Below are positions 1,466 to 20,293 of a stretch of DNA of 20,786 bases, one piece after another. The translations under genes were made by a program, and so were the position numbers. Each line of letters opens with the position of its first letter. Position 1 is the first letter of the stretch. Source of the DNA: Clostridia bacterium (GTDB lineage Bacteria; Bacillota_A; Clostridia; Christensenellales; Aristaeellaceae); NCBI GenBank assembly GCA_017397695.1, contig JAFQIF010000041.1:1-20786 (forward strand), written 5' to 3'. The notes beneath the pieces were generated by a model that was given only the letters and a program-made list of their open reading frames with translations, did not search any database and was not told where the DNA came from.

Positions 1466-2851
1466 TTACTTGTTCTTTGCAGCATCTTCAGCGACGCGCA
1501 TCATGATCGCGCATTCGATGCGCTTCTTGAAGAGCTCGCAGCCCGGCTTATATACGCCGGCAATGGTGCCTGTAGCGTGATAGGCGTTGGCCGCGCAGCC
1601 GCCGGAGCAGTAGAGCTTGGCCCAGCAGTCCTTGCATTCCGGGCGGGAATACGCATTGCACGCGCGGAACTGCTCGCGCAGCGCCGTATTGGTCACGCCG
1701 CCCCAGATGTTGCCCAGCTTGTAGCTTTCCTCACCTACGAACTGATGGCAGGGATACAGATCGCCCCATGGGGTAACGGCCATGTATTCCGTGCCGGAAC
1801 CGCAGCCAGAGATCCGCTTGTAGATGCACGGGCCTTCGGTCAGGTCGAGCATGTAGTGATAGAAGGTGAAGGGACGGCCTTCCTGCTGGCGTTTGAGCAT
1901 TTCCTTAGCCAGTACTTCGTATTGATCCTTGACGGTTTCGATATCGTCGCTCGTCAGGCCGGCAGGGTCGCCCTCGGCGCAGACGACAGGCTCCATGCTC
2001 AGCTCCGTGAAGCCCATATCCGCCATGTGGAAGACGTCCTTGGTGAAGTCCGGATTGGCATGGGTGAACGTGCCGCGCATGTAGTAGTTCTTTCCGCCGC
2101 GGGATTCAACAAACTGCTTGAACTTGGGTACGATGCGGTCATAGCTGCCGTTGCCGGCGTAGTCCACGCGCAGGCGGTCGTGGATTTCCTTGCGGCCATC
2201 CAGGCTGAGCACGACGTTGCTCATCTCCTTATTGGAGAATTCAATCACGTCGTCATCAATCAGCACACCGTTGGTCGTCAGGGTGAAGCGGAAGTTCTTT
2301 CCATGCTCCTTCTCCACGCTGCGGGCATACTTGACCAGATTCTTGACCACATCCCAGTTCATCAGCGGCTCGCCGCCAAAGAAGTCGACCTCCAGGTTGC
2401 GGCGCGTACCGGAATGCTCGATCAGGAAATCGAGCGCGCGCTTGCCGACCTCGAAGCTCATCAGCGCACGGTCGCCGTGGTACTTGCCCTGGCTGGCGAA
2501 GCAGTAAGAACAGTTGAGGTTGCAGGTGTGAGCCACGTGCAGGCAAAGCGCCTTGACCACGTCGCCGGAGCGCTCCTTGAGCGTGCCGGCCATGGGGGCG
2601 AAGGTATCCGGCGTGAAGAGCTTGCCCATCTTCTTGAGGGCTTCCACATCGCCGATGCACAGGCGGATTTCTTCCTCGGTCACATCCTTGCGGTCGCCGT
2701 ACTTGTCCATCATGGCGTGCACGATTTCATCCGCAGATGCGCTTTCGTACATGGCGATGATGTCGTAGGCGACGTCGTCTACGGAATGCACGGAGCCGGA
2801 GCAGGTGTCCAGAACGATGTTATAGCCATTGAGCTTATACTGGTGAAGCAT
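1466..2851 (-). CDS. scfB: Thioether cross-link-forming SCIFF peptide maturase (radical SAM/SPASM)
   Basis: A 461-residue radical SAM enzyme. The CxxxCxxC cluster motif is at Cys110, Cys114 and Cys117 (TCNLNCSYCFASQGKYHGD), followed by a GGEP motif near 159-162. The C-terminal SPASM region holds Cys clusters around GCGSGTEYMAV...YPCHQF and CKDCWAKLYCSGGCAANAYHATG, which in this family bind two auxiliary iron-sulfur clusters. An N-terminal winged domain of about 90 residues (RRE-like in this family) probably grips the precursor leader. The family installs Cys-to-Thr thioether bonds in the SCIFF peptide, whose gene lies just upstream on the same strand at 2924-3067. Start supported by GGAGG upstream. 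Length is normal for the family. Confidence 0.95.
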   Translation of the reverse strand: MLHQYKLNGYNIVLDTCSGSVHSVDDVAYDIIAMYESASADEIVHAMMDKYGDRKDVTEEEIRLCIGDVEALKKMGKLFTPDTFAPMAGTLKERSGDVVKALCLHVAHTCNLNCSYCFASQGKYHGDRALMSFEVGKRALDFLIEHSGTRRNLEVDFFGGEPLMNWDVVKNLVKYARSVEKEHGKNFRFTLTTNGVLIDDDVIEFSNKEMSNVVLSLDGRKEIHDRLRVDYAGNGSYDRIVPKFKQFVESRGGKNYYMRGTFTHANPDFTKDVFHMADMGFTELSMEPVVCAEGDPAGLTSDDIETVKDQYEVLAKEMLKRQQEGRPFTFYHYMLDLTEGPCIYKRISGCGSGTEYMAVTPWGDLYPCHQFVGEESYKLGNIWGGVTNTALREQFRACNAYSRPECKDCWAKLYCSGGCAANAYHATGTIAGVYKPGCELFKKRIECAIMMRVAEDAAKNK

Positions 2852-2923: not shown

Positions 2924-3067
2924 TTACTTGTTGTTCTCGCACTGCTGATTGGCCACGCCGCAGCTGGTCTTGCAGGCAGACTGGCAAGAGGTCTGGCACT
3001 CGCCGCAGCCGCCGTTCTTAGCGCTCTCGCACATATTGCGGGTCTCAAGCGTCTTGATTCTCTCCAT
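2924..3067 (-). CDS. scfA: SCIFF family RiPP precursor (six cysteines in forty-five residues)
   Basis: A 47-residue peptide beginning MERIKTLETRN, with a core CGECQTSCQSACKTSC followed by GVANQQC. Cysteines at 21, 24, 28, 32, 36 and 43 match the six conserved SCIFF positions. There is also a seventh cysteine at position 13 in the leader. SCIFF is a nearly universal Clostridia ribosomally made peptide, cross-linked by the radical SAM maturase encoded next door; its cellular role is unknown. The start was chosen at the ATG at 3067, with GGAG 9 bases upstream and the conserved MxxIKTL leader beginning there. A longer in-frame reading from 3259 would include the promoter and is unlikely. Confidence 0.95.
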   Translation of the reverse strand: MERIKTLETRNMCESAKNGGCGECQTSCQSACKTSCGVANQQCENNK

Positions 3068-3145
3068 AACCGCTATCTCCAATTCTGATTGATATTTGAT
3101 TCTCACTGCATTGCAAAACAGCAAAACAGCCCAATAATCATTAGA

Positions 3146-3174
3146 AGTATAGCACAGAGCGCTATGTAAGTCAA
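3146..3174 (-). promoter_or_regulatory. Sigma-A-type promoter of scfA
   Basis: On the minus strand TTGACT (3169-3174) and TATACT (3146-3151) are separated by exactly 17 bases, one mismatch each from consensus. It lies about 80 bases upstream of the scfA start. Strong predicted promoter, consistent with a highly expressed peptide gene. Confidence 0.8.
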
Positions 3175-3265
3175 GCAATCGTACAGAGGGAATTTGGCAG
3201 AGGCAAACAGGAACACAGGATGAAGAAAATTGGACATATCCTGTATTGAAATTCATCAAAAGGGG

Positions 3266-9742: not shown

Positions 9743-11716
9743 TTACCAGACTGCCTTGTCCAGGCTCTCTTTCCCGGCGAACGGGCCGGGCACAGCGCTT
9801 ACGCCACGCTTGTTGCCGTAATAGTCGCGGTCAAAGAGGATGAACGATCCATCCGGATCCTCAAAGCGCTGATCCGGCTCGAAGGCGCAGCCCAGAATGT
9901 CGCTGTGGATGAGACCGGAGGCAAAGCTACCCAGATAATCAAACAGATTGGTTTTAAGCGCATATGCGCCGTCCTGCTCGATCATATCAATTCGAACGTC
10001 GGCGTGATCATCGACGAGACAGTGCTGCTCGTTTTTCCACGGTTTTGCGCCGCCAAGATAGGCATTGCCGTCGATCCATACGGGCAGATGGCTGAAGTGG
10101 TATTTTTCGAGCTTGCCCATGTCGGGGCGCGCAGCATCGAGATCAAACCAGCCGATCCATTCGTCATAGGCAGGATACTCGTCAAAGCACCAGGTGCCGG
10201 ACAAGCGCTCATGCTCACGCGGCGCGCCGCGTTCTACTGGTGTGTCTGCCGGCCAGCCCTGAATGAAAATGTTGTTGTAGATGCGGTTGTCGCCATGCAG
10301 GATGGTCATGAAGCCCGCAACCTCGGTGCGGTGGCGGATGTGGTAAGGGGTGTAACGCCAAGTGGTACCATCGCCGACAAACGTAAGCGGGCCCATGGCC
10401 AGATTGTGTACCATGGCGACGCCCTGCGTAGCCAGACGCACAGATGCCTTGGAGAGCATGATATTGTTGTCGATGAGCGTCGGGCCGTGACCGACCTCAA
10501 TAAAGATATCCTGGCTTTCCATGCCGCCCTCGGCCCACGCGCAGCCGGCAGGACGCTCGTTGTGGTGGAGCAGATTCTGAGAAATGCGCGTACCCTGCGG
10601 CTCCCAGTCGCACCAGATGCCCATTGTGCAGTGGTGAATATGGTTGCGGCGGATAACCACATCGATGGCCGCATGCAGCTTGATGCCGGAAATCTCTGCA
10701 CCGCCCAGTTCCTGCATGTTGTTGATATGATGGATGTGGTTATTTTCGATCAGCGAGAATACTGCGCCCATGCGTCCGACGATGCCTGTCTGCTCGCAAT
10801 GGTGGATATGGCAGCGGCGCACAATGTGCGAACCGACCTTTTCCTTGAGCCATCCGTGATACTGACCGCGGCATACGGCGTCGCGCTCCATCTGCGTCGG
10901 GCTCTTGAGATGCCGGGTGGTGAAGTAATGATCGTTTTCCGGATCATAATACTTGCCCAGCGAGATGCCGCAGCACTTGCTGTTGCTGATTTCACAGTCT
11001 TCAATAATCCAGCCCTTGCTCCAGTGCGGGCCGACCATGCCATCCTGGAAGGCGGCGGGCGGCGCCCATGTGGTGGCGGCCTTTTCGACTTTGAATCCGC
11101 TCAGGGTGATGTATCCTCTGCCCGTCTCCTCGGGGAAGAAGCAGCGGCGGCGGACGTTAATCTCCGTCTTCTGCGTATTGGGATCAATCTGCTGGAAGTT
11201 GGCATATATGCGCGTCTTTCCGTCTTCCTGTACGGAAAACCACTTGTACACAGAGTATTCCGGTTCCCAGGACGGCGCATAGACTTTGCCCGCAATGCAC
11301 TCATCAAGCGATTCGGCTTCGTAGAGCATGCGGTCATTGAGGTATACCGCGCCGGCATGACGCACGGACGGAGCGAAGTACCAGTCGCCGAAGACTTCCG
11401 TGGTATACGGATTGTAATTGCCGAAGACGCCGTTATCGACACTGAGTGTCCACAGACCGCTGTCTAAACGCTGCCATCCGGTGACGGTCTGCGCGCCAGT
11501 GATCACGGCGCCGAGCGGCACTTCGCTGCGGTAGACGATTCGCTGTTCCTCTGTACCGCCGTTTTTCGGGCTGACACATTCGCGGTAAATACCCGGTGCG
11601 ACGATCACCTCGTCACCCGGAAGGGCAAGCGAGGCGGCTTCGCTGATGCTTCTGAAGGGGCGCGCTTTGCTGCCGTCGCCTTCACGCGGAGCGAGATGAT
11701 TAACATAATAGATCAT
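9743..11716 (-). CDS. GH120 family beta-xylosidase (parallel beta-helix)
   Basis: A 657-residue protein that closely follows my recollection of XylC of Thermoanaerobacterium (GH120). Shared segments include GDEVIVAPGIYRE, EVFGDWYF, the TWAPPA region, HWSKGWIIEDCEISNSKC (231-248), IKLHAAIDV (345-353), WCDWEPQGTR (368-377) and IFIEVGHGP (404-412). By that comparison Asp370 would be the nucleophile and Glu407 the acid/base. The residue pattern is a right-handed parallel beta-helix. No signal peptide is present, so it should act in the cytosol on imported xylo-oligosaccharides. AAGGAGG lies 6 bases before the ATG. A stretch around ERPAGCAWAEGGMESQ, about 14 residues longer than in the reference, lies between the two catalytic residues. 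No transporter or regulator is adjacent. Confidence 0.85.
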   Translation of the reverse strand: MIYYVNHLAPREGDGSKARPFRSISEAASLALPGDEVIVAPGIYRECVSPKNGGTEEQRIVYRSEVPLGAVITGAQTVTGWQRLDSGLWTLSVDNGVFGNYNPYTTEVFGDWYFAPSVRHAGAVYLNDRMLYEAESLDECIAGKVYAPSWEPEYSVYKWFSVQEDGKTRIYANFQQIDPNTQKTEINVRRRCFFPEETGRGYITLSGFKVEKAATTWAPPAAFQDGMVGPHWSKGWIIEDCEISNSKCCGISLGKYYDPENDHYFTTRHLKSPTQMERDAVCRGQYHGWLKEKVGSHIVRRCHIHHCEQTGIVGRMGAVFSLIENNHIHHINNMQELGGAEISGIKLHAAIDVVIRRNHIHHCTMGIWCDWEPQGTRISQNLLHHNERPAGCAWAEGGMESQDIFIEVGHGPTLIDNNIMLSKASVRLATQGVAMVHNLAMGPLTFVGDGTTWRYTPYHIRHRTEVAGFMTILHGDNRIYNNIFIQGWPADTPVERGAPREHERLSGTWCFDEYPAYDEWIGWFDLDAARPDMGKLEKYHFSHLPVWIDGNAYLGGAKPWKNEQHCLVDDHADVRIDMIEQDGAYALKTNLFDYLGSFASGLIHSDILGCAFEPDQRFEDPDGSFILFDRDYYGNKRGVSAVPGPFAGKESLDKAVW

Positions 11717-12389: not shown

Positions 12390-12456
12390 AACTTATGTGA
12401 ACTTATACGAGTTTACATCAACAATACATTGGATTATGCGAACTTACATGAACTTA
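12390..12456 (+). repeat. Helically phased AACTTA repeats
   Basis: AACTTA begins at 12390, 12400, 12441 and 12451, with a related AGTTTA at 12410. Spacing is exactly 10, 10, 31 and 10 bases, about one helical turn or a multiple. The surrounding AT-rich stretch 12142-12620 has no gene I can support. Such arrays bind proteins along one DNA face. Candidates are arm-type sites for an integrase or excisionase near the attachment site, a regulator site or an origin iteron. Confidence 0.5.
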
Positions 12457-12622
12457 AGTAAAAAATAGAGAAGCATATAAGAACTCTGCGTATTACCCAC
12501 ATCAACTCAACAAATAGCATAAATGATTTTCATTTTCTCTATAATGCTTTACAAGATTCCTTGGATTGGAGAGTGAAGAAAGATCATAGGGATTTTTGGT
12601 TTAGACAGAGAAAATAAAACTA

Positions 12623-12651
12623 TTGCAATTCAGTATGGTTTCGTGTAGAAT
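12623..12651 (+). promoter_or_regulatory. Promoter of the thiamine salvage operon
   Basis: TTGCAA (12623-12628), 17-base spacer, TAGAAT (12646-12651). Transcription would start about 10 bases before the first TPP aptamer, as expected for a riboswitch leader. Confidence 0.75.
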
Positions 12652-12665
12652 AAACACATCAATAA

Positions 12666-12757
12666 ACACAGGGGAGCTTGTATTGACAGGCTGAGAGGAA
12701 GTTATCAACTTCGACCCTTTAACCTGATGCGGGTAATGCCGCCGTAGGAAGAAGTGT
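12666..12757 (+). promoter_or_regulatory. TPP riboswitch aptamer 1 (THI element)
   Basis: All landmarks of the TPP aptamer are present in order: GGGGAGC, GGCTGAGAGG (pyrimidine-recognition loop), a P3 hairpin AAGTT/AACTT, CGACCCTTTAACCTGAT, GCGGGTAATGCCGC (P5 with the TAATGCC loop that reads the phosphates) and CGTAGGA. P1 can close by ACAC (12666-12669) with GTGT (12754-12757). It is followed by its own terminator. Confidence 0.93.
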
Positions 12758-12771
12758 AAATGCTTTTTTAC

Positions 12772-12807
12772 GGAGTATCGCCCAACAGGTGGTACTCCTT
12801 TTAATTT
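12772..12807 (+). terminator. Expression-platform terminator of TPP riboswitch 1
   Basis: An 11-bp stem GGAGTATCGCC / GGTGGTACTCC (two G-U pairs) with a CAACA loop and a TTTTAATTTT tract. It should form when TPP binds aptamer 1 and stop transcription before aptamer 2. Confidence 0.82.
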
Positions 12808-12809
12808 TA

Positions 12810-12898
12810 TATCGGGGGAGCTTGTATTGACAGGCTGAGAGGAAGTTATCAACTTCGACCCTTTAACCTGATTTGGATAATGCCAACGTAGGGAATGA
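12810..12898 (+). promoter_or_regulatory. TPP riboswitch aptamer 2 (THI element), in tandem
   Basis: A second complete aptamer. Its first 58 core bases (12815-12872) are identical to 12671-12728 of aptamer 1. The P5 part then differs (TTTGGATAATGCCAA instead of GCGGGTAATGCCGC), with compensating stem changes that keep both P5 stems paired. It ends CGTAGGGA. It sits directly upstream of the second terminator and thiM. Confidence 0.93.
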
Positions 12899-12908
12899 TT
12901 GATTTTCA

Positions 12909-12942
12909 AAGCGTTCCCGAAAGTGGGGGCGCTTATTTCTTT
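12909..12942 (+). terminator. Expression-platform terminator of TPP riboswitch 2
   Basis: Stem AAGCGTTCCC / GGGGGCGCTT (two G-U pairs), loop GAAAGT, followed by ATTTCTTT and immediately by the thiM ribosome site. Weaker than the first terminator; it may also act on translation because it abuts the Shine-Dalgarno. Confidence 0.65.
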
Positions 12943-12952
12943 GGAGGAAAAT

Positions 12953-13762
12953 ATGCTTGGAGAGATTATTACTCAAAATCGGCGGCGCAGACCGCTGATT
13001 CATTGCATCAGCAATCATGTAACAGCAAATGATTGTGCCAATATTCTGCTGGCATGCGGCGGTTCGGCGATCATGGCGGATGATCCTGATGAGGTCAAAG
13101 AGATTACGGCAATGTGTGACGGCCTGGTTTTGAATATGGGAACACCGAATCCGCGCAAGATTGAAGCCCTGCTGCGTGCGGGCTTGGAAGCGAACAGACT
13201 TGGGCATCCAATAATCCTTGATCCTGTAGGAGTTGGAAGCTCGGGTATGAGAAGAAAAGCAGCACATCAGTTGCTTGAAAGCGTTCGCTTTGCCGCTATT
13301 CGTGCAAACGCAACCGAAATTGCAACGCTTGCTTACGGAACAACAGCGCATCGGGGTGTTGATGCTGATATAGAAGAAGCAGAAATGAGAGTTGTTGCTC
13401 AGAATGCCAGATTGTTGTCGCGGGAAACAGGTGCAGTAGTCATCGTTACTGGCGATACTGACATTGTTACAGACGGTAATACGACGTATCGTGTCCATAA
13501 TGGTCATCCCATGATGCGAACAGTCACTGGCTCTGGATGTCAACTATCTGTCCTGCTTGGTGCATATATCACGTCAAATCAAGAGCGTCCATTACAGGCG
13601 GCGCTGGCTGCTGTATGTTCTATGGGGTTGTGTGGAGAGATTGCCTATAAGCGCCTTGGCCCTCTGGACGGAAATGCAAGCTATCGAAATTATATCATTG
13701 ATGCGATTTATAACTTAACTCCGGTTGATTTGGAGAAGGGAGCAAAATATGAAACTGAATAA
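12953..13762 (+). CDS. thiM: Hydroxyethylthiazole kinase
   Basis: A 269-residue ribokinase-like enzyme that phosphorylates 4-methyl-5-(2-hydroxyethyl)thiazole with ATP in thiamine salvage. Motifs: N-terminal PLIHCISNHVTANDCANILL (14-33), MADDPDE (41-47), DPVGVGSS (90-97), RANATEI (117-123) and the anion-hole/active-site VTGSGCQLS (191-199) with Cys196. The start at 12953 is set by GGAGG 6-9 bases upstream; an earlier in-frame start would run through the riboswitch platform. Its last 14 bases overlap thiE. The gene and its leader look more AT-rich than the genes that follow, which may reflect a mosaic operon. Confidence 0.95.
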   Translation: MLGEIITQNRRRRPLIHCISNHVTANDCANILLACGGSAIMADDPDEVKEITAMCDGLVLNMGTPNPRKIEALLRAGLEANRLGHPIILDPVGVGSSGMRRKAAHQLLESVRFAAIRANATEIATLAYGTTAHRGVDADIEEAEMRVVAQNARLLSRETGAVVIVTGDTDIVTDGNTTYRVHNGHPMMRTVTGSGCQLSVLLGAYITSNQERPLQAALAAVCSMGLCGEIAYKRLGPLDGNASYRNYIIDAIYNLTPVDLEKGAKYETE

Positions 13763-14387
13763 AGAAATGATGCGCCTCTATGCGGTGACGGATCGCAGTT
13801 GGCTGCGCGGACAGACGCTTTGCGAGCAGGTAGAACTGGCTTTGATTGGCGGAGCAACGCTGGTACAGCTTCGGGAAAAGGCGCTGGATGAAGAAACTTT
13901 CCTGCGCGAAGCTGTTGATATGGCGAAGCTCTGCCATCGTTATGGCGTACCGCTGCTGATTAACGACAATGTGGAGATCGCCCGCCGCAGCGGTGCGGAC
14001 GGTGTTCATGTCGGTCAGGATGATATGGAGGCAGCGTCTGTACGCAGTATCCTCGGCTCTGACATGATCGTGGGTGTTACCGCGAAGACTGTCCCGCAAG
14101 CCATTCGTGCGCAGAAAGCCGGTGCGGATTATCTGGGCAGCGGTGCTGTATTTGGCTCGTCCACAAAGCTGAACGCAAAGCCGATGACCAAGGAACTGCT
14201 TGGGTCCATCTGCCATGCTGTCACGATTCCGGTCGTAGCCATCGGCGGCATCAACAGGCATAACATCCTTGAACTCGCCGGAACGGACATCTCTGGCGTC
14301 GCCGTAGTGTCCGGCATCTTTGCCGCAGACGATATTGAAGCGGAATGCCGCCATCTGCGCAGCATCGTGAATCAGATGACCAAGTGA
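13749..14387 (+). CDS. thiE: Thiamine-phosphate synthase
   Basis: A 212-residue TIM-barrel enzyme joining HMP-PP and thiazole phosphate to thiamine monophosphate. Motifs: LYAVTDR (9-15), GGATLVQLREKALDEETF, LLINDNVEIARRSGADGVHVGQDDM, GVTAKTVPQA, GADYLGSGAVFGSSTKLNAK and VVAIGGINRHNI. The ATG at 13749 is preceded by GGAGAAGGGAG inside thiM and overlaps the thiM end by 14 bases, so translation is probably coupled. Confidence 0.95.
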   Translation: MKLNKEMMRLYAVTDRSWLRGQTLCEQVELALIGGATLVQLREKALDEETFLREAVDMAKLCHRYGVPLLINDNVEIARRSGADGVHVGQDDMEAASVRSILGSDMIVGVTAKTVPQAIRAQKAGADYLGSGAVFGSSTKLNAKPMTKELLGSICHAVTIPVVAIGGINRHNILELAGTDISGVAVVSGIFAADDIEAECRHLRSIVNQMTK

Positions 14388-14654: not shown

Positions 14655-15167
14655 ATGAAACGCAATCGTACCCTGCGGCTGACGCTGGCCGCACTTCTTA
14701 CCGCTGTTGCCGTCGTCGGCAGCCTGTTCTCTTTCCCGGTGTTTGGCAGCAAATGTTCCCCGGTTCAGCACATGGTCAACGTCATCTGCGGCGTTCTTCT
14801 TGGCCCTTGGTATGCCTTCGGCGCGGGCTTTCTCGCCGCGCTGATCCGAAACCTCTTTGGCCTCGGCAGCTTGCTGGCGTTTCCCGGCAGCATGTGCGGC
14901 TCTCTGCTCTGCGGCTTCGTCTGGAAATATAGCAAGAAGCTGCTGCCTGCGCTGGTCGGCGAAGTATTCGGCACCGGCATCATCGGCGGCCTGCTGGCCT
15001 ATCCGATTGCCGTTGCGTTTATGGGCGTCTCTTCTGCCAGCATTGGCTTTACGGCCTATGTCGTTCCCTTCCTGATTTCGACTGTTGTTGGCTCCATCAT
15101 TGCAGGCGCGATTATCTTTGCCCTTCAGAAGAACGGAACCCTCAACTCCATGAAGAATAAGCTTTGA
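14655..15167 (+). CDS. thiW: Energy-coupling factor transporter S component ThiW
   Basis: A 170-residue membrane protein with about five to six helices. After a basic start (MKRNRTLRL) it has TLAALLTAVAVVGSLFSFPV, then GSKCSPVQHMVNVICGVLLG and PWYAFGAGFLAALIRN. GTLLAFPGSMxG-type sequence (LGSLLAFPGSMCG) is typical of ThiW. ThiW is the substrate-binding subunit of an ECF importer predicted to take up the thiazole moiety, which fits thiM in the same operon. It needs EcfA/EcfT proteins encoded elsewhere. The start at 14655 is set by AGGAGG at 14640-14645; a longer reading from 14508 would run through the structured leader. Confidence 0.92.
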   Translation: MKRNRTLRLTLAALLTAVAVVGSLFSFPVFGSKCSPVQHMVNVICGVLLGPWYAFGAGFLAALIRNLFGLGSLLAFPGSMCGSLLCGFVWKYSKKLLPALVGEVFGTGIIGGLLAYPIAVAFMGVSSASIGFTAYVVPFLISTVVGSIIAGAIIFALQKNGTLNSMKNKL

Positions 15168-15242: not shown

Positions 15243-15902
15243 ATGATTCAGGGAATGATTTTTGATTTTGATGGCACACTGTTTGATTCTATGTTCATAT
15301 GGGATATCGCAGGTGAAACTTACCTTCGCTCCATCGGAAAAGAACCTCAGGAGGAACTGCAAAGTATACTGAAGCCCATGAGTCTATACCAGTCAGCCGC
15401 TTATCTCAAGGAGCAGTATAGCATCCCTCTGTCCATCGAAGACATCATGAGCGGCATCAATCGAACCGTCGAGAGCTTCTACTTTCACACAGTAAAGCCA
15501 AAGCCGGGTGTGGTTGCCTTTCTTGAGAAACTCGCCCTAAAAGGTGTGCGCATGTGCATTGCAACAGCGACAGATCGCTATCAGGTAGAAGCGGCGCTTG
15601 TACGATGCGGAATGAGGCATTTCTTTTCTGAGATCTTCACATGCACGGAAGTCGGTAGCGGCAAAGATCAGCCATTGATCTTCCGCAAGGCGATGGAGCA
15701 TCTTCAAACAGACCGCAGCAACACAGTGGTCGTTGAGGACGCCTGGCATGCCATCCGCACCGCAAAGAATGACGGCTTCATTGTCGCAGCGGTATGCGAT
15801 GCTCACGAAAGCATGCAGCGCTGTATCTGTGAGACGGCAGATATTTACCTGACGGATTATTTCCACATAGATCCACTTTGGAAGTTTGCTTCGGCCATAT
15901 AG
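15243..15902 (+). CDS. HAD-superfamily phosphatase, thiamine operon
   Basis: A 219-residue HAD hydrolase. Motif I is DFDGTLFDS with nucleophile Asp8 and acid/base Asp10. Motif II is the Thr/Ser in CIATATDRYQ. A lysine in GSGKDQP fits motif III, and VVVEDAWHAIRTAKNDGF is motif IV. The helical region after motif I is a type-1 cap, as in beta-phosphoglucomutase-like phosphatases. AAGGACAG lies upstream of the ATG. Its position between thiW and thiD suggests a thiamine-related phosphate, perhaps thiamine monophosphate so that a pyrophosphokinase can finish the cofactor. This is inferred from context; HAD substrates cannot be predicted from sequence. Confidence 0.88.
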   Translation: MIQGMIFDFDGTLFDSMFIWDIAGETYLRSIGKEPQEELQSILKPMSLYQSAAYLKEQYSIPLSIEDIMSGINRTVESFYFHTVKPKPGVVAFLEKLALKGVRMCIATATDRYQVEAALVRCGMRHFFSEIFTCTEVGSGKDQPLIFRKAMEHLQTDRSNTVVVEDAWHAIRTAKNDGFIVAAVCDAHESMQRCICETADIYLTDYFHIDPLWKFASAI

Positions 15903-15986: not shown

Positions 15987-16799
15987 ATGAAAAAGAAAAC
16001 AGCATTGACCATTGCAGGCAGCGACTGCAGTGGAGGCGCCGGTATTCAGGCCGATCTGAAAACGATGACCATGAATGGGGTCTATGCCATGAGCGCGATC
16101 ACCGCGCTGACGGCACAGAACACAACCGGCGTAAGAGCAATTCAGGAATCCACGCCCGAATTCCTCGGACAGCAGATCGACGCGGTATTTGAGGATATTG
16201 TTCCCGATGCCGTCAAGATCGGCATGGTATCCTCCTCAGAACTGATCTGCGTGATCGCGGGCAAGCTGAAGGCGAACAAGGCAAAAAACGTCGTGGTAGA
16301 CCCCGTTATGGTGGCGACCAGCGGCTCGGCGCTGATGAAGACGGACGCTGTGCAGACGCTGACCCGAGAACTGCTGCCGCTGGCTTCGCTCGTCACGCCG
16401 AACATCCCGGAAGCACAGGTACTTTCCGGAATGATCATTGAAAGCAAGGACGATATGATCATGGCGGCGAAGAAGATCAGCGACGACTGCCATTGCGCCG
16501 TGCTGCTTAAGGGCGGTCACAGTATCAATGACGCCAACGATCTCCTGGTTGCCAATGGTGAATCTATGTGGTTTACCGGAAAGCGCATCGACAACCCCAA
16601 CACCCACGGAACGGGCTGCACGCTCTCCAGCGCCATTGCTGCCAATCTCGCCAAGGGCTACAGCCTTGCGGATTCCGTCCGTAGAGCCAAGGACTATATC
16701 TCCGGCGCGCTTGCCGCTATGCTGGATCTGGGACAGGGCTCCGGCCCGATGGATCATGCCTTTGACCTGACGGGCACGTTTGCGAAGGAGACGGAGTGA
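15987..16799 (+). CDS. thiD: Hydroxymethylpyrimidine/phosphomethylpyrimidine kinase
   Basis: A 270-residue ribokinase-fold enzyme that phosphorylates HMP and then HMP-P to HMP-PP. Motifs: TIAGSDCSGGAGIQADLKTM (8-27), MSAITALTAQNT, VKIGMVSS, VVDPVMVATSG, LVTPNIPEAQVLSG, CAVLLKGGH and the C-terminal NTHGTGCTLSSAIAANLAKG ATP/anion-hole segment. AAGGAG precedes the ATG. The cytX start follows one base after the stop. Length is normal for the family. Confidence 0.95.
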   Translation: MKKKTALTIAGSDCSGGAGIQADLKTMTMNGVYAMSAITALTAQNTTGVRAIQESTPEFLGQQIDAVFEDIVPDAVKIGMVSSSELICVIAGKLKANKAKNVVVDPVMVATSGSALMKTDAVQTLTRELLPLASLVTPNIPEAQVLSGMIIESKDDMIMAAKKISDDCHCAVLLKGGHSINDANDLLVANGESMWFTGKRIDNPNTHGTGCTLSSAIAANLAKGYSLADSVRRAKDYISGALAAMLDLGQGSGPMDHAFDLTGTFAKETE

Positions 16800-16800
16800 T

Positions 16801-17970
16801 ATGACAGAAAAACGTACATCCGTCTTTGAAAACGGATTGATCTGGTTCGGCGCTGCGGTTTCCATTGCGGAGATTTTAACTGGCACCTACTTTGCACCTC
16901 TCGGCTTTTCCAAGGGTCTGTTTGCCATCGTCATCGGTCACATCATCGGCTGTGTCATGCTTTTCTTTGCTGGTCTTATCGGCGGTACGGTACGTAAAAG
17001 TGCGATGGAAACCGCAAAGATGAGCTTCGGCAGTAAGGGTGCGCTGCTCTTCACTGTGCTGAATATCATTCAGCTGATCGGTTGGACGGCCATCATGATC
17101 TATGACGGCGCGCTGGCGGTAAACGGCATTCTCGCCATCGGAAACTGGATCTGGTGTATCGTCATCGGCGCGCTGATCATCCTCTGGATCATGATCGGTA
17201 TCCAGAACCTTGGCAAGGTGAACACCGTGGCGATGGGCGCGCTGTTCGTTCTCACGATCGTACTGAGCTTCGTGATCTTTGGCAAAGGCACCGCACTGAA
17301 TGTGGTTGGCGAAGGCATGACCTTCGGCGCGGCCGTTGAGCTTTCCGTTGCCATGCCGCTTTCCTGGCTGCCGCTGATCAGCGACTATACCCGGGAAGCC
17401 AAGAAGCCTGTAAAGGCCACTGCTGTCAGCGCAATCGTCTACGGCATCGTCAGCTGCTGGATGTATGTAATCGGTATGGGTGCGGCCATCTTTACCGGAG
17501 AATCCGACATTGCACAGATCATGGTCAAGGCGGGCCTCGGTGTTGCTGGCCTTCTGATTATCGTGTTCTCTACCGTGACGACAACCTTCCTTGATGCGTA
17601 TTCCGCAGGCGTCTCCAGCGAATCGCTTTCCGCCAGAATCAGCAGTAAGTGGGTTGCTGTCGGCGTAACCGTGCTGGGCATTATAGGAGCAGTGTCCTTG
17701 CCCCTTGCGGACATCACAGACTTCCTGTACTTCATTGGCTCGGTCTTTGCGCCGATGATCGCCATCCAGATCGCTGATTTCTTTATCCTGAAACAGAGCA
17801 AGGAAGACAGTGCATTCAGCATGCAGAATCTGATCATCTGGCTTGTCGGCTTTGTGATCTACAGGCTGCTGATGAATGTGGATATCATCGTAGGCAACAC
17901 CCTGCCCGATATGCTCATCACGATCACCATTTGCATTGCAGTCAGAAAGATTGAAAAAGTAAAGAACTGA
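16801..17970 (+). CDS. cytX: Putative hydroxymethylpyrimidine transporter CytX (NCS1 family)
   Basis: A 389-residue membrane protein of the nucleobase:cation symporter-1 / cytosine permease type, with about 12 helices. Typical segments are ENGLIWFGAAVSIAEILTGTYFAPLG, GHIIGCVMLFFAGLIGG, the PLSWLPLISDYTREAKKP stretch and FSTVTTTFLDAYSAGVS. CytX proteins co-occur with thiD and are thought to import HMP. The start at 16801 was chosen because GGAG in the thiD tail precedes it and the protein then begins MTEKRTSVFENG, the usual N-terminus. It is the last gene of the thiamine operon, followed by a terminator. Confidence 0.9.
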   Translation: MTEKRTSVFENGLIWFGAAVSIAEILTGTYFAPLGFSKGLFAIVIGHIIGCVMLFFAGLIGGTVRKSAMETAKMSFGSKGALLFTVLNIIQLIGWTAIMIYDGALAVNGILAIGNWIWCIVIGALIILWIMIGIQNLGKVNTVAMGALFVLTIVLSFVIFGKGTALNVVGEGMTFGAAVELSVAMPLSWLPLISDYTREAKKPVKATAVSAIVYGIVSCWMYVIGMGAAIFTGESDIAQIMVKAGLGVAGLLIIVFSTVTTTFLDAYSAGVSSESLSARISSKWVAVGVTVLGIIGAVSLPLADITDFLYFIGSVFAPMIAIQIADFFILKQSKEDSAFSMQNLIIWLVGFVIYRLLMNVDIIVGNTLPDMLITITICIAVRKIEKVKN

Positions 17971-18670: not shown

Positions 18671-19267
18671 ATGAAGAATTGGGGCTATGCGCGTTGCTCG
18701 ACGAACGAGGACAAGCAGGACATCAACAGGCAGATCCGCGAACTGAAAGCCGCAGGCGCGGACGAAGTGATTTTTGAATACGAGCATGGAGACGCCAAGG
18801 TCAAAAAGAATCTCCATATGCTCTTGGATGCGGCGACTGAGGGCGACACGATCATCACTCTTGAGGTCAGCCGACTGAGCAGGAGCACACAGCAGCTGTG
18901 CGAGATCATAGACGTCATCAAGGATAAGAAGCTGAGATTGGTGATCGTGGGAAGCATCACGATTGACTGCCGGAACGGAGAGATTGATCCCATGTCGGCG
19001 GTGTTTATGAAGATGGCTGGTGTATTCTCGGAGCTTGAGCTTCAGATGATTCGCGCCCGGGTTCGCTCTGGCGTAAAGAATGCGCAGAGCAAGGGCGTTA
19101 AGGTGGGGCGCAAGCCTACGACGAAGGACGATATTCCCGCGATCTTCTACAAGCATTATCCTGCGTTTGCTGCAAAACAGATGAATGTGAGCGAACTGGC
19201 GAGGATATGCGGGCTGAGTAGGCCGACGGTGTATAAGTATTTGGAGCTGGTGGAATTAAAGGCATAA
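18671..19267 (+). CDS. Serine recombinase (small resolvase/invertase type)
   Basis: A 198-residue protein. The catalytic motif YARCSTNEDKQD places the nucleophile Ser at residue 10. LEVSRLSRSTQQLCEII contains the conserved SRxSR-type arginines. FMKMAGVFSELELQMIRARVRSGV is the long E-helix that forms the dimer, and GRKP links to a C-terminal helix-turn-helix (NVSELARICGLSRPTVYKYLEL). This is the size of Tn3-type resolvases and DNA invertases, not of large ICE integrases. AGGAGG at 18657-18662 supports the start. Its role may be resolving cointegrates or multimers of the element. It is unlikely to be the enzyme that used the tRNA site, which normally needs a tyrosine recombinase. Confidence 0.92.
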   Translation: MKNWGYARCSTNEDKQDINRQIRELKAAGADEVIFEYEHGDAKVKKNLHMLLDAATEGDTIITLEVSRLSRSTQQLCEIIDVIKDKKLRLVIVGSITIDCRNGEIDPMSAVFMKMAGVFSELELQMIRARVRSGVKNAQSKGVKVGRKPTTKDDIPAIFYKHYPAFAAKQMNVSELARICGLSRPTVYKYLELVELKA

Positions 19268-19424
19268 ATACATTCTTTCTTAATAAACTCAGACTCGGGA
19301 AAAACAGGTTATTTCCATGGTTTTCGTCGTTTTGCACAATGCGAATATGTATATCTGATTGTTGTGTTTACATATCCTTATTCTTCGCTTTACATTATAT
19401 CATATCTCCTTTGGAACTGCGGAT

Positions 19425-19453
19425 TTGTAAGGTTTCTCGATTCGGATTATGAT
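19425..19453 (+). promoter_or_regulatory. Candidate promoter upstream of the DUF4417 gene
   Basis: TTGTAA (19425-19430), 17-base spacer, TATGAT (19448-19453). The -10 overlaps an inverted repeat GATTATG / CATAATC (19445-19451 with 19461-19467) that could be an operator. About 180 bases upstream of the gene. The stretch 19268-19633 contains no gene I can support. Confidence 0.4.
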
Positions 19454-19498
19454 TCTCATACATAATCATGAGTTGAGGAGGGATGCATTTGATTGCAT

Positions 19499-19537
19499 AA
19501 AAAATGATCATTCTCTGTTGCCGCAGGAATGATCGTT
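19499..19537 (-). terminator. Minus-strand terminator in the gene-poor stretch
   Basis: Stem AATGATCATTC / GAATGATCGTT (19503-19513 with 19527-19537, one G-U) with a 13-base loop. Read on the minus strand it is followed by TTTTTTAT, the form of an intrinsic terminator. It lies next to a larger hairpin at 19555-19613 and has no protein gene feeding into it. Confidence 0.6.
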
Positions 19538-19554
19538 TGGGAAGATTATTTCTC

Positions 19555-19613
19555 TTCCACATATGCGTCATGATGTGACGCTGCACACCCATCATAACGC
19601 ATCTCGTGTGGAA
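19555..19613 (-). repeat. Large imperfect hairpin, possible small RNA or element site
   Basis: TTCCACA (19555-19561) pairs with TGTGGAA (19607-19613). Inside it, ATGCGTCATGATG (about 19563-19575) pairs with CATCATAACGCAT (about 19590-19602) with one mismatch. Placed just upstream, on the minus strand, of the terminator at 19499-19537, it could be the 5' domain of a small RNA of about 120 bases. Alternatives are an origin of transfer/replication structure or leader of the DUF4417 gene. Confidence 0.4.
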
Positions 19614-19633
19614 AAACAACATGCAAATACGAG

Positions 19634-20293
19634 GTGAAAAAGGAATTAAAAAATACTCCTTGGAATGATGTATTTCATACCAGTATGGTAGACGGTGCTA
19701 AATTTAGTACACAGTATGAGTTTCCTATTTTACAGAAAAGCACCTATACCACGCAGCAGGCGATTCCTTTTGAAAAGGGATTAAGAAGCAGAAATAAAAA
19801 TCAATGGATTCATTTTTATACGCATGACAGGAACTTTGAATGCCTTTGGCGAACACCTGAAAGGTATTTGTCGGCATTGCAGTCTTTTCAAGGTGTTATT
19901 ACGCCTGATTATAGTCTCTATAGAGAAATGCCATTGGCGATGCAAATCTGGAATACCTACCGCAATCGCGCAATAGCATTCTGGATGCAGAAAAACAATA
20001 TTCCCATCATTCCTAACATTCGTTGGAGTGACGAGAGAACATATTCTTTCGCGTTTGAGGGTATTCCGCGTAATAGCGTAGTGGCGGTAAGTACTTGCGG
20101 TTGCATTCGTAAGCCTCTTGACAGGCTGTATTTCAAAAAAGGCTTGCTTGAAATGTTGGCAGTACTTCAGCCTTCCGCCATTGTTGCTTACAGTTCTGCG
20201 CCCAAGGCGGTCTTTGATGAAGTGCAAACTTGCGGAATTCCCGTTTTTCTCATTGAAAACTATCAGAAAACCGTTCGAAAGGCGGCGATCTGA
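19634..20293 (+). CDS. DUF4417 domain-containing protein
   Basis: A 219-residue soluble protein matching the pattern I associate with DUF4417, a family common in phages and mobile elements of Bacillota and of unknown function. Visible parts: WIHFYTHDRNFECLWRTPER, GVITPDYSLYREMPLAMQIW, NTYRNRAIAFWMQKNNIPII, PNIRWSDERTYSFAFEGIPR and VAVSTCGCI. It starts with GTG at 19634, overlapping a GAGG site. That site is close to the start codon, so the start is not certain; the first methionine inside the protein is residue 18. Its TGA overlaps the next ATG by one base. Confidence 0.75.
   Translation: MKKELKNTPWNDVFHTSMVDGAKFSTQYEFPILQKSTYTTQQAIPFEKGLRSRNKNQWIHFYTHDRNFECLWRTPERYLSALQSFQGVITPDYSLYREMPLAMQIWNTYRNRAIAFWMQKNNIPIIPNIRWSDERTYSFAFEGIPRNSVVAVSTCGCIRKPLDRLYFKKGLLEMLAVLQPSAIVAYSSAPKAVFDEVQTCGIPVFLIENYQKTVRKAAI

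Follow-up and report, generated by a model that had tools for sequence, protein, structure and literature searches.

The leader of a thiamin operon in a 20,786-nucleotide stretch of DNA from a Clostridia bacterium (contig JAFQIF010000041.1; hereafter the window) is, in our assessment, very probably controlled by an old tandem of two independent TPP riboswitches that each terminate transcription, and a 58-base identity between the two copies very probably reflects recent gene conversion of their sensing halves. Screening of the whole window against Rfam revealed two matches to the TPP riboswitch family RF00059, one at 12660-12767 (+; 67.6 bits, E 1.3e-11) and one at 12804-12911 (+; 69.3 bits, E 4.7e-12). 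Both span model positions 1-105 of 105 and exceed the gathering score of 54.3 bits, and nothing in the window other than these two aptamers scored above a gathering score. The copies are spaced 144 bases apart, and ungapped comparison at this offset revealed zero differences between their 58-base P2-P3 cores (12671-12728 (+) in copy 1 and 12815-12872 (+) in copy 2); outside of this run, the copies diverge immediately at both ends. The original prediction, made from the sequence without database searches, had described two full aptamers with this spacing and identical cores, and the coordinates that it assigned to the tandem (12666-12942) fit the aptamers and their terminators. It had also described divergence with maintained pairing in P5, and this holds: P5 is GCGG/CCGC in copy 1 compared to UUGG/CCAA in copy 2, such that two pairs are altered on both strands and pairing is kept. 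In the Rfam alignment, CUGAGA and the P4/P5 pocket elements, which we take to be the pocket residues that touch TPP, are present in both copies, and one conserved G is replaced in copy 1 (GUAGGAA for GUAGGGA). P1 comprises 4 bp in copy 1; in copy 2 it is absent from the minimum free energy (MFE) structure of the aptamer and comprises about 3 bp by eye, and Rfam flags three of five P1 pairs as non-standard in each copy. Terminator 1 is separated from core 2 by 16 bases, and no gene lies between the two units.

Two terminator-like hairpins with T-rich tails were identified by a scan of positions 12400-13000, compared to a mean of 0.4 in shuffled sequences. The scan and folding place predicted intrinsic terminator 1 at 12772-12798 (+; 11 bp, tail TTTTAATTTT, stem folding energy of -17.9 kcal/mol) and predicted intrinsic terminator 2 at 12909-12934 (+; tail ATTTCTTT, -16.5 kcal/mol), both with imperfect tails. 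Folding further indicates an alternative pairing partner for the 3' strand of P4 in each switch, namely the terminator's 5' arm. The predicted anti-terminators are located at 12742-12773 (+; CCGTAGGAAG with the T run and ACGG, fold -9.8) and 12891-12918 (+; GGGAATG with CGTTCCC, fold -10.6). Anti-terminator 1 is within the MFE structure of a partial transcript that ends at 12785, as is anti-terminator 2 in a partial transcript that ends at 12921, a single end point having been tried in each case. Folds of the full leader favour the terminator in switch 1 (-48.5 versus -43.1 kcal/mol) and in switch 2 (-41.0 versus -38.4 kcal/mol), and an unforced fold of the full switch 2 forms the terminator with loss of the outer P2 pairs. 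These models predict competing hairpins in each of the two units.

Comparison with relatives revealed two types of expression platform. In tandem thiM loci of two genera, type 1 is the platform of the first unit, with GUAGGAAGA and a GGAGUAUC.CC terminator, and type 2 is that of the second unit, with GGGA(A/G) and AGCGUUCC. The tandem of the window, with both types in the same order, recurs in L001, L002, L004, L005/L006, and L149, where these labels denote thiM loci or leaders from our collection. A type-1 unit alone was identified in L003 and L008 and a type-2 unit alone in L007, and, judged by eye, the more distant single leaders of L137, L138, and L142 are type-2-like. In alignments of the two types, which were constructed without L006 and L149, 98.7% of cells were paired for terminator 1 and 93.8% for anti-terminator 1 among seven type-1 units, compared to at most 63.2% and 62.5%, respectively, when the pairing was slid. 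Among six type-2 units, the corresponding values were 91.7% for terminator 2 (a figure in which the terminator of L005, shifted in the alignment, is scored as unpaired; slid, at most 58.3%) and 92.9% for anti-terminator 2 (slid, at most 69.0%). Terminator 1 contained one pair that differed on both strands, and the other three hairpins contained none; slid controls also contained such a pair in the case of terminator 1, and another in the case of anti-terminator 2. With so few variable pairs, column shuffling could not distinguish the pairings of the four hairpins from chance: 135-500 of 500 shuffles did as well in cells paired. These data are consistent with the original prediction of a separate terminator for each copy, and suggest that each unit comprises a full aptamer and its own predicted expression platform, with both platforms kept in relatives.

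The position of the second terminator raises the question of whether switch 2 acts instead on translation, by sequestering the ribosome binding site, which would make the tandem a pair with two mechanisms. Only 8 bases separate the end of terminator 2 from GGAGG (12943-12947 (+)), the likely ribosome binding site of thiM. However, GGAGG lies outside of the terminator 2 hairpin, which is followed by a T-rich tail; all six type-2 units retain the hairpin and T-rich tail by eye, and in L005 the hairpin is about 95 bases from GGAGG. We therefore consider a translational mechanism improbable.

The genes that follow the tandem are arranged in the order thiM-thiE-thiW-HAD-thiD-cytX, and four of the five genes after thiM are thiamin genes. 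The first is thiM, encoding hydroxyethylthiazole kinase (12953-13762 (+); PF02110, NF006830 above its cut-off and TIGR00694 below its cut-off), followed by thiE, encoding thiamine phosphate synthase (13749-14387 (+); PF02581, TIGR00693 above cut-off), and, after a gap of 267 bases, thiW, encoding an ECF transporter S component (14655-15167 (+), with PF09512 identified in a longer reading from 14508; TIGR02359 above cut-off). A HAD-family phosphatase (15243-15902 (+); PF13419) separates thiW from thiD, which encodes an HMP/HMP-P kinase (15987-16799 (+); PF08543, TIGR00097 above cut-off), and the last gene is cytX, encoding a putative HMP transporter (16780-17970 (+); TIGR02358 above cut-off). 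No NCBIfam equivalog was above cut-off among the best 25 matches listed for the HAD phosphatase, and a homolog was identified by tblastn in 34 of 80 thiM loci. There is no thiL among the six annotated operon genes; as a guess, the HAD phosphatase may be a thiamin monophosphate phosphatase. A sigma-70-like promoter candidate (TTGCAA - 17 - TAGAAT; 12623-12651 (+)) matches the consensus at 9 of 12 positions and is the sole promoter-like site on the + strand in 12400-13000, upstream of copy 1, in a scan that was near chance level (three sites on both strands versus a shuffle mean of 1.5). By eye, TTGAC...TATA(A/C)T is present at the matching place in L001, L002, L004, L005, and L007. We infer that the six genes from thiM to cytX share one transcript.

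The most likely working of the pair is that both switches act in series on this transcript, either one terminating it when TPP is bound, which would provide a steeper and tighter shut-off. TPP binding is expected to hold P4 and P1 of the aptamer and thus to block the anti-terminator. In the window, the TPP-bound aptamer would clamp P1 and P4, and the 3' strand of P4 (CGUAGG...) would then be unavailable for the anti-terminator; without the anti-terminator, the terminator would fold and RNA polymerase would stop. When TPP is absent, the anti-terminator of each switch would fold first and the polymerase would continue. A transcript that passes two such switches would be expressed according to the product of two read-through probabilities, and this product would result in less leak and a steeper dose response. 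If each switch is treated as a simple one-site binder and both have the same affinity, arithmetic predicts that the second switch would narrow the 10-90% range from 81-fold to about 40-fold.

Equal affinity is a simplification, and the copies might differ in TPP affinity or even in ligand (e.g., TMP or thiamin for one of them), which would provide two thresholds or other logic. P5 of copy 2 is richer in A+U and its P1 is weaker, and the A that copy 1 carries for the conserved G of GUAGGGA is invariant in the seven aligned type-1 units. Some RNAs classed as TPP riboswitches prefer thiamin or thiamine monophosphate, according to the available sections of one survey (PMC9481103). However, the 58-base half that contains the CUGAGA pocket is identical in the two copies, CGUAGG is present in both, the change in P5 keeps its pairing, and the A variant is common, being found in seven of the eight tandem loci of other groups shown (the exception is L015). 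A difference in affinity or ligand is thus unlikely in our view, if less so than a translational role for switch 2, and two similar switches in series remain the preferred explanation.

The recurrence of both platform types bears on the age of the pair. In a thiM tree of 18 rows, in which 3 of 14 inner branches are starred and 7 are open, a branch with support of 92/96, short of the starred threshold, unites the window with L001, L002, and the type-1 single leader L003; the other tandems L004, L005/L006, and L149 form a clade (100/99). Either the pair is old or it was gained repeatedly with the same platforms; an old origin is the simpler explanation, and the thiM tree is compatible with both. 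If the pair is old, the single leaders of L003, L007, and L008 would be losses. A quite different explanation for the 58-base identity would be an assembly error, or a tandem duplication that happened recently in this strain. This would account for 58 identical bases and for the restriction of the exact core to the window, given that it was detected in 0 of 80 thiM loci and nowhere on the + strand of loci added later. It would leave unexplained that the flanks of the copies differ immediately, that the 3' halves of the two copies differ at 25-35 of about 68 positions, that the platform of each 3' half is nonetheless that of its counterparts in relatives (2-14 differences in type 1 and 9-29 in type 2), and that the order of the units is repeated in other assemblies, including metagenome-assembled genomes (MAGs) from water buffalo, goat, and roe deer. 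The presence of the pair and of both its platforms in relatives makes a recent duplication or assembly artefact very unlikely.

The two halves of the switches differ in how they have diverged. Distances between the two copies were measured over their 5' halves, from GGGGAGC to ACCTGAT, in the window, L001, L002, L004, L005, and L149; L006 was left out of this distance test, as its leader is identical to that of L005. The within-locus distances of the 5' halves of these six loci sum to 19, compared to a permuted mean of 41, and 2 of 720 permutations were as good, in a small sample with a locus G+C of 0.53-0.62 and with permutation counts uncorrected for shared base composition. The 3' halves of the same loci sum to 176 versus a permuted mean of 178.3 (215 of 720 permutations as good), and they differ by platform type, with 2-14 differences within type 1, 9-29 within type 2, and 25-35 between types. 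The 5' half of the window is the most extreme (0 of 58 positions differ), and with the window removed 2 of 120 permutations were as good for the 5' halves. One old duplication followed by no exchange predicts that copies within a genome are no closer than copies of different genomes. The 5' halves are closer within genomes; therefore, they appear to have been homogenised. No homogenisation is evident in L005 and L149 since their split: the copies within each differ at 4 positions, and the same-type copies of the two loci differ at 2 and 1.

Tandem loci of other groups display both patterns. Among five such loci, 6 of 120 permutations were as good (33 of 720 when L115 is added), a result driven by L015 and L046, with 2 differences each. 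This test did not include L018, which contains N bases, or L060 and L062, which are near-duplicates of L054 and L042, respectively; with these three loci included and L115 left out, 180 of 40320 permutations were as good. The 5' halves of unrelated tandems in L042, L059, and L115 are unhomogenised (11, 8, and 15 differences, respectively). As some tandems are homogenised and others are not, the process would be episodic, and the likeness of 5' halves within genomes is consistent with episodic gene conversion of the sensing half. The original prediction had proposed a recent duplication with gene conversion as one source of the identical cores. Conversion of the core is in line with the permutation statistics (2 of 720), and the recent duplication does not agree with a platform order that is common to two genera. 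More broadly, we lean slightly toward the view that tandem riboswitches evolve by halves, in which the 5' sensing half would be repeatedly converted and the 3' half would have been type-specific since before the split of the two genera. If this is true, the coexistence of tandems with single leaders of one type or the other would be accounted for by conversion, together with collapse between the same repeats.

The original prediction had proposed a comparison with homologous operons, and this identified both single and double copies: in the two genera, the 14 leaders that could be assigned a place immediately ahead of thiM comprised 6 tandems and 8 singles. An Rfam scan of the first 14 of 80 kept thiM loci identified two TPP sites in five (L001, L002, L004, L005, and L006), one in eight, and none in L013. 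Aptamers less than 300 bases apart were listed by regular expression in at least 13 of 80 thiM loci, a lower bound as the expression can miss aptamers, after removal of artefacts from overlapping starts (L010, L014, L033, L038, L043, L058, and L074 within the 80 and L099 outside of them). Among whole genomes, most of which are fragmented MAGs, sites less than 300 bases apart were identified in 3 of 29 in the genus of G001 (G001, G002, and G007) and in 4 of 18 in the genus of G005 (G004, G005, G138, and G178), where G005 and G178 share one leader. The pair in G007 precedes a thiS-like gene by eye, and one of its sites scored 53.8 bits, just under the cut-off. This pair (L115; C76 13704-13961), with a spacing of 153, is a second TPP tandem. 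At least 3 of 150 genomes sampled from the family (G001, G052, and G138) encode a tandem, again a lower bound given stricter filters and 24 candidates scored per genome. The spacing of the switches is 231 bases in L002 (5740-5860), which has additional sequence after terminator 1 and before copy 2. The closest thiM among collected loci is that of L002, from an uncultured Clostridia bacterium of the goat rectum (80% identity), and the closest from a named genus is that of L003, from Christensenella sp. UBA4263 (76%). The host of the tandem is therefore probably an uncultured gut bacterium of the Clostridia, close to Christensenellaceae.

Viral and plasmid origins were considered and rejected. 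A 44-base part of the core had no exact match in viral contigs, and a thiM relative was absent there among three candidate stretches. The sole match in the plasmid collection for 12600-13800 comprised 63 bases at 84.1% identity in Acetoanaerobium noterae. Elsewhere in the window, a SCIFF peptide maturase is encoded at 1466-2851 (-) (TIGR03974, 760.7 bits), and beside it, at about 2924-3067 (-), the final 47 residues of an open reading frame at 2924-3259 (-) are Cys-rich and by eye resemble a SCIFF precursor. A beta-helix protein with a glycoside hydrolase 120 insertion domain is encoded at 9743-11716 (-), and a serine recombinase and a DUF4417 protein, perhaps mobile-element genes, are encoded downstream of the operon at 18671-20293 (+).

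As a regulatory device, the tandem is one further conserved case of a known class. The original prediction had called tandem TPP riboswitches rare, which does not accord with 213 TPP representatives in tandem with their own class in one survey, or with the TPP-TPP arrangements described before thiM, thiE, and thiD in Bacillota (available sections of PMC9481103 and PMC12452182, respectively). The tandem arrangement is thus already known in many bacteria; what is less familiar is evolution by halves. Judged by title, no open-licence paper that we found treats concerted evolution or gene conversion of riboswitch tandems, and the main text of PMC9481103 uses none of the terms gene conversion, duplication, and recombination. 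The relatives of the window provide a natural series in which the same operon follows tandem, type-1-only, or type-2-only leaders; this series could allow the gain from serial switches to be measured and the concerted evolution of regulatory RNA to be followed.

The TPP tandem of Bacillus anthracis (Welz and Breaker, 2007, as described in part of PMC9481103) likewise comprises serial units of aptamer and platform, each able to terminate, and a pseudo-cooperative outcome of tandem riboswitches is described in the same source. The tandem in the window differs in host group and operon and in its near-identical sensing halves, and is described here from its sequence. The TPP-TPP tandems of Bacillota, as presented in the available part of PMC12452182, share with the window the same arrangement before the same first genes; frequencies are reported there, to which our analysis adds the sequence evolution of the copies. 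Tandem glycine riboswitches resemble the TPP case in that tandems and singletons coexist, and most glycine singletons have been argued to derive from tandem decay (PMC6944388, in the part available), a possible parallel, by analogy, to the single TPP leaders of L003, L007, and L008. However, the two aptamers of the dual-aptamer glycine riboswitches have a single expression platform in common, as outlined in PMC9481103, whereas each unit in the window has a predicted platform of its own.
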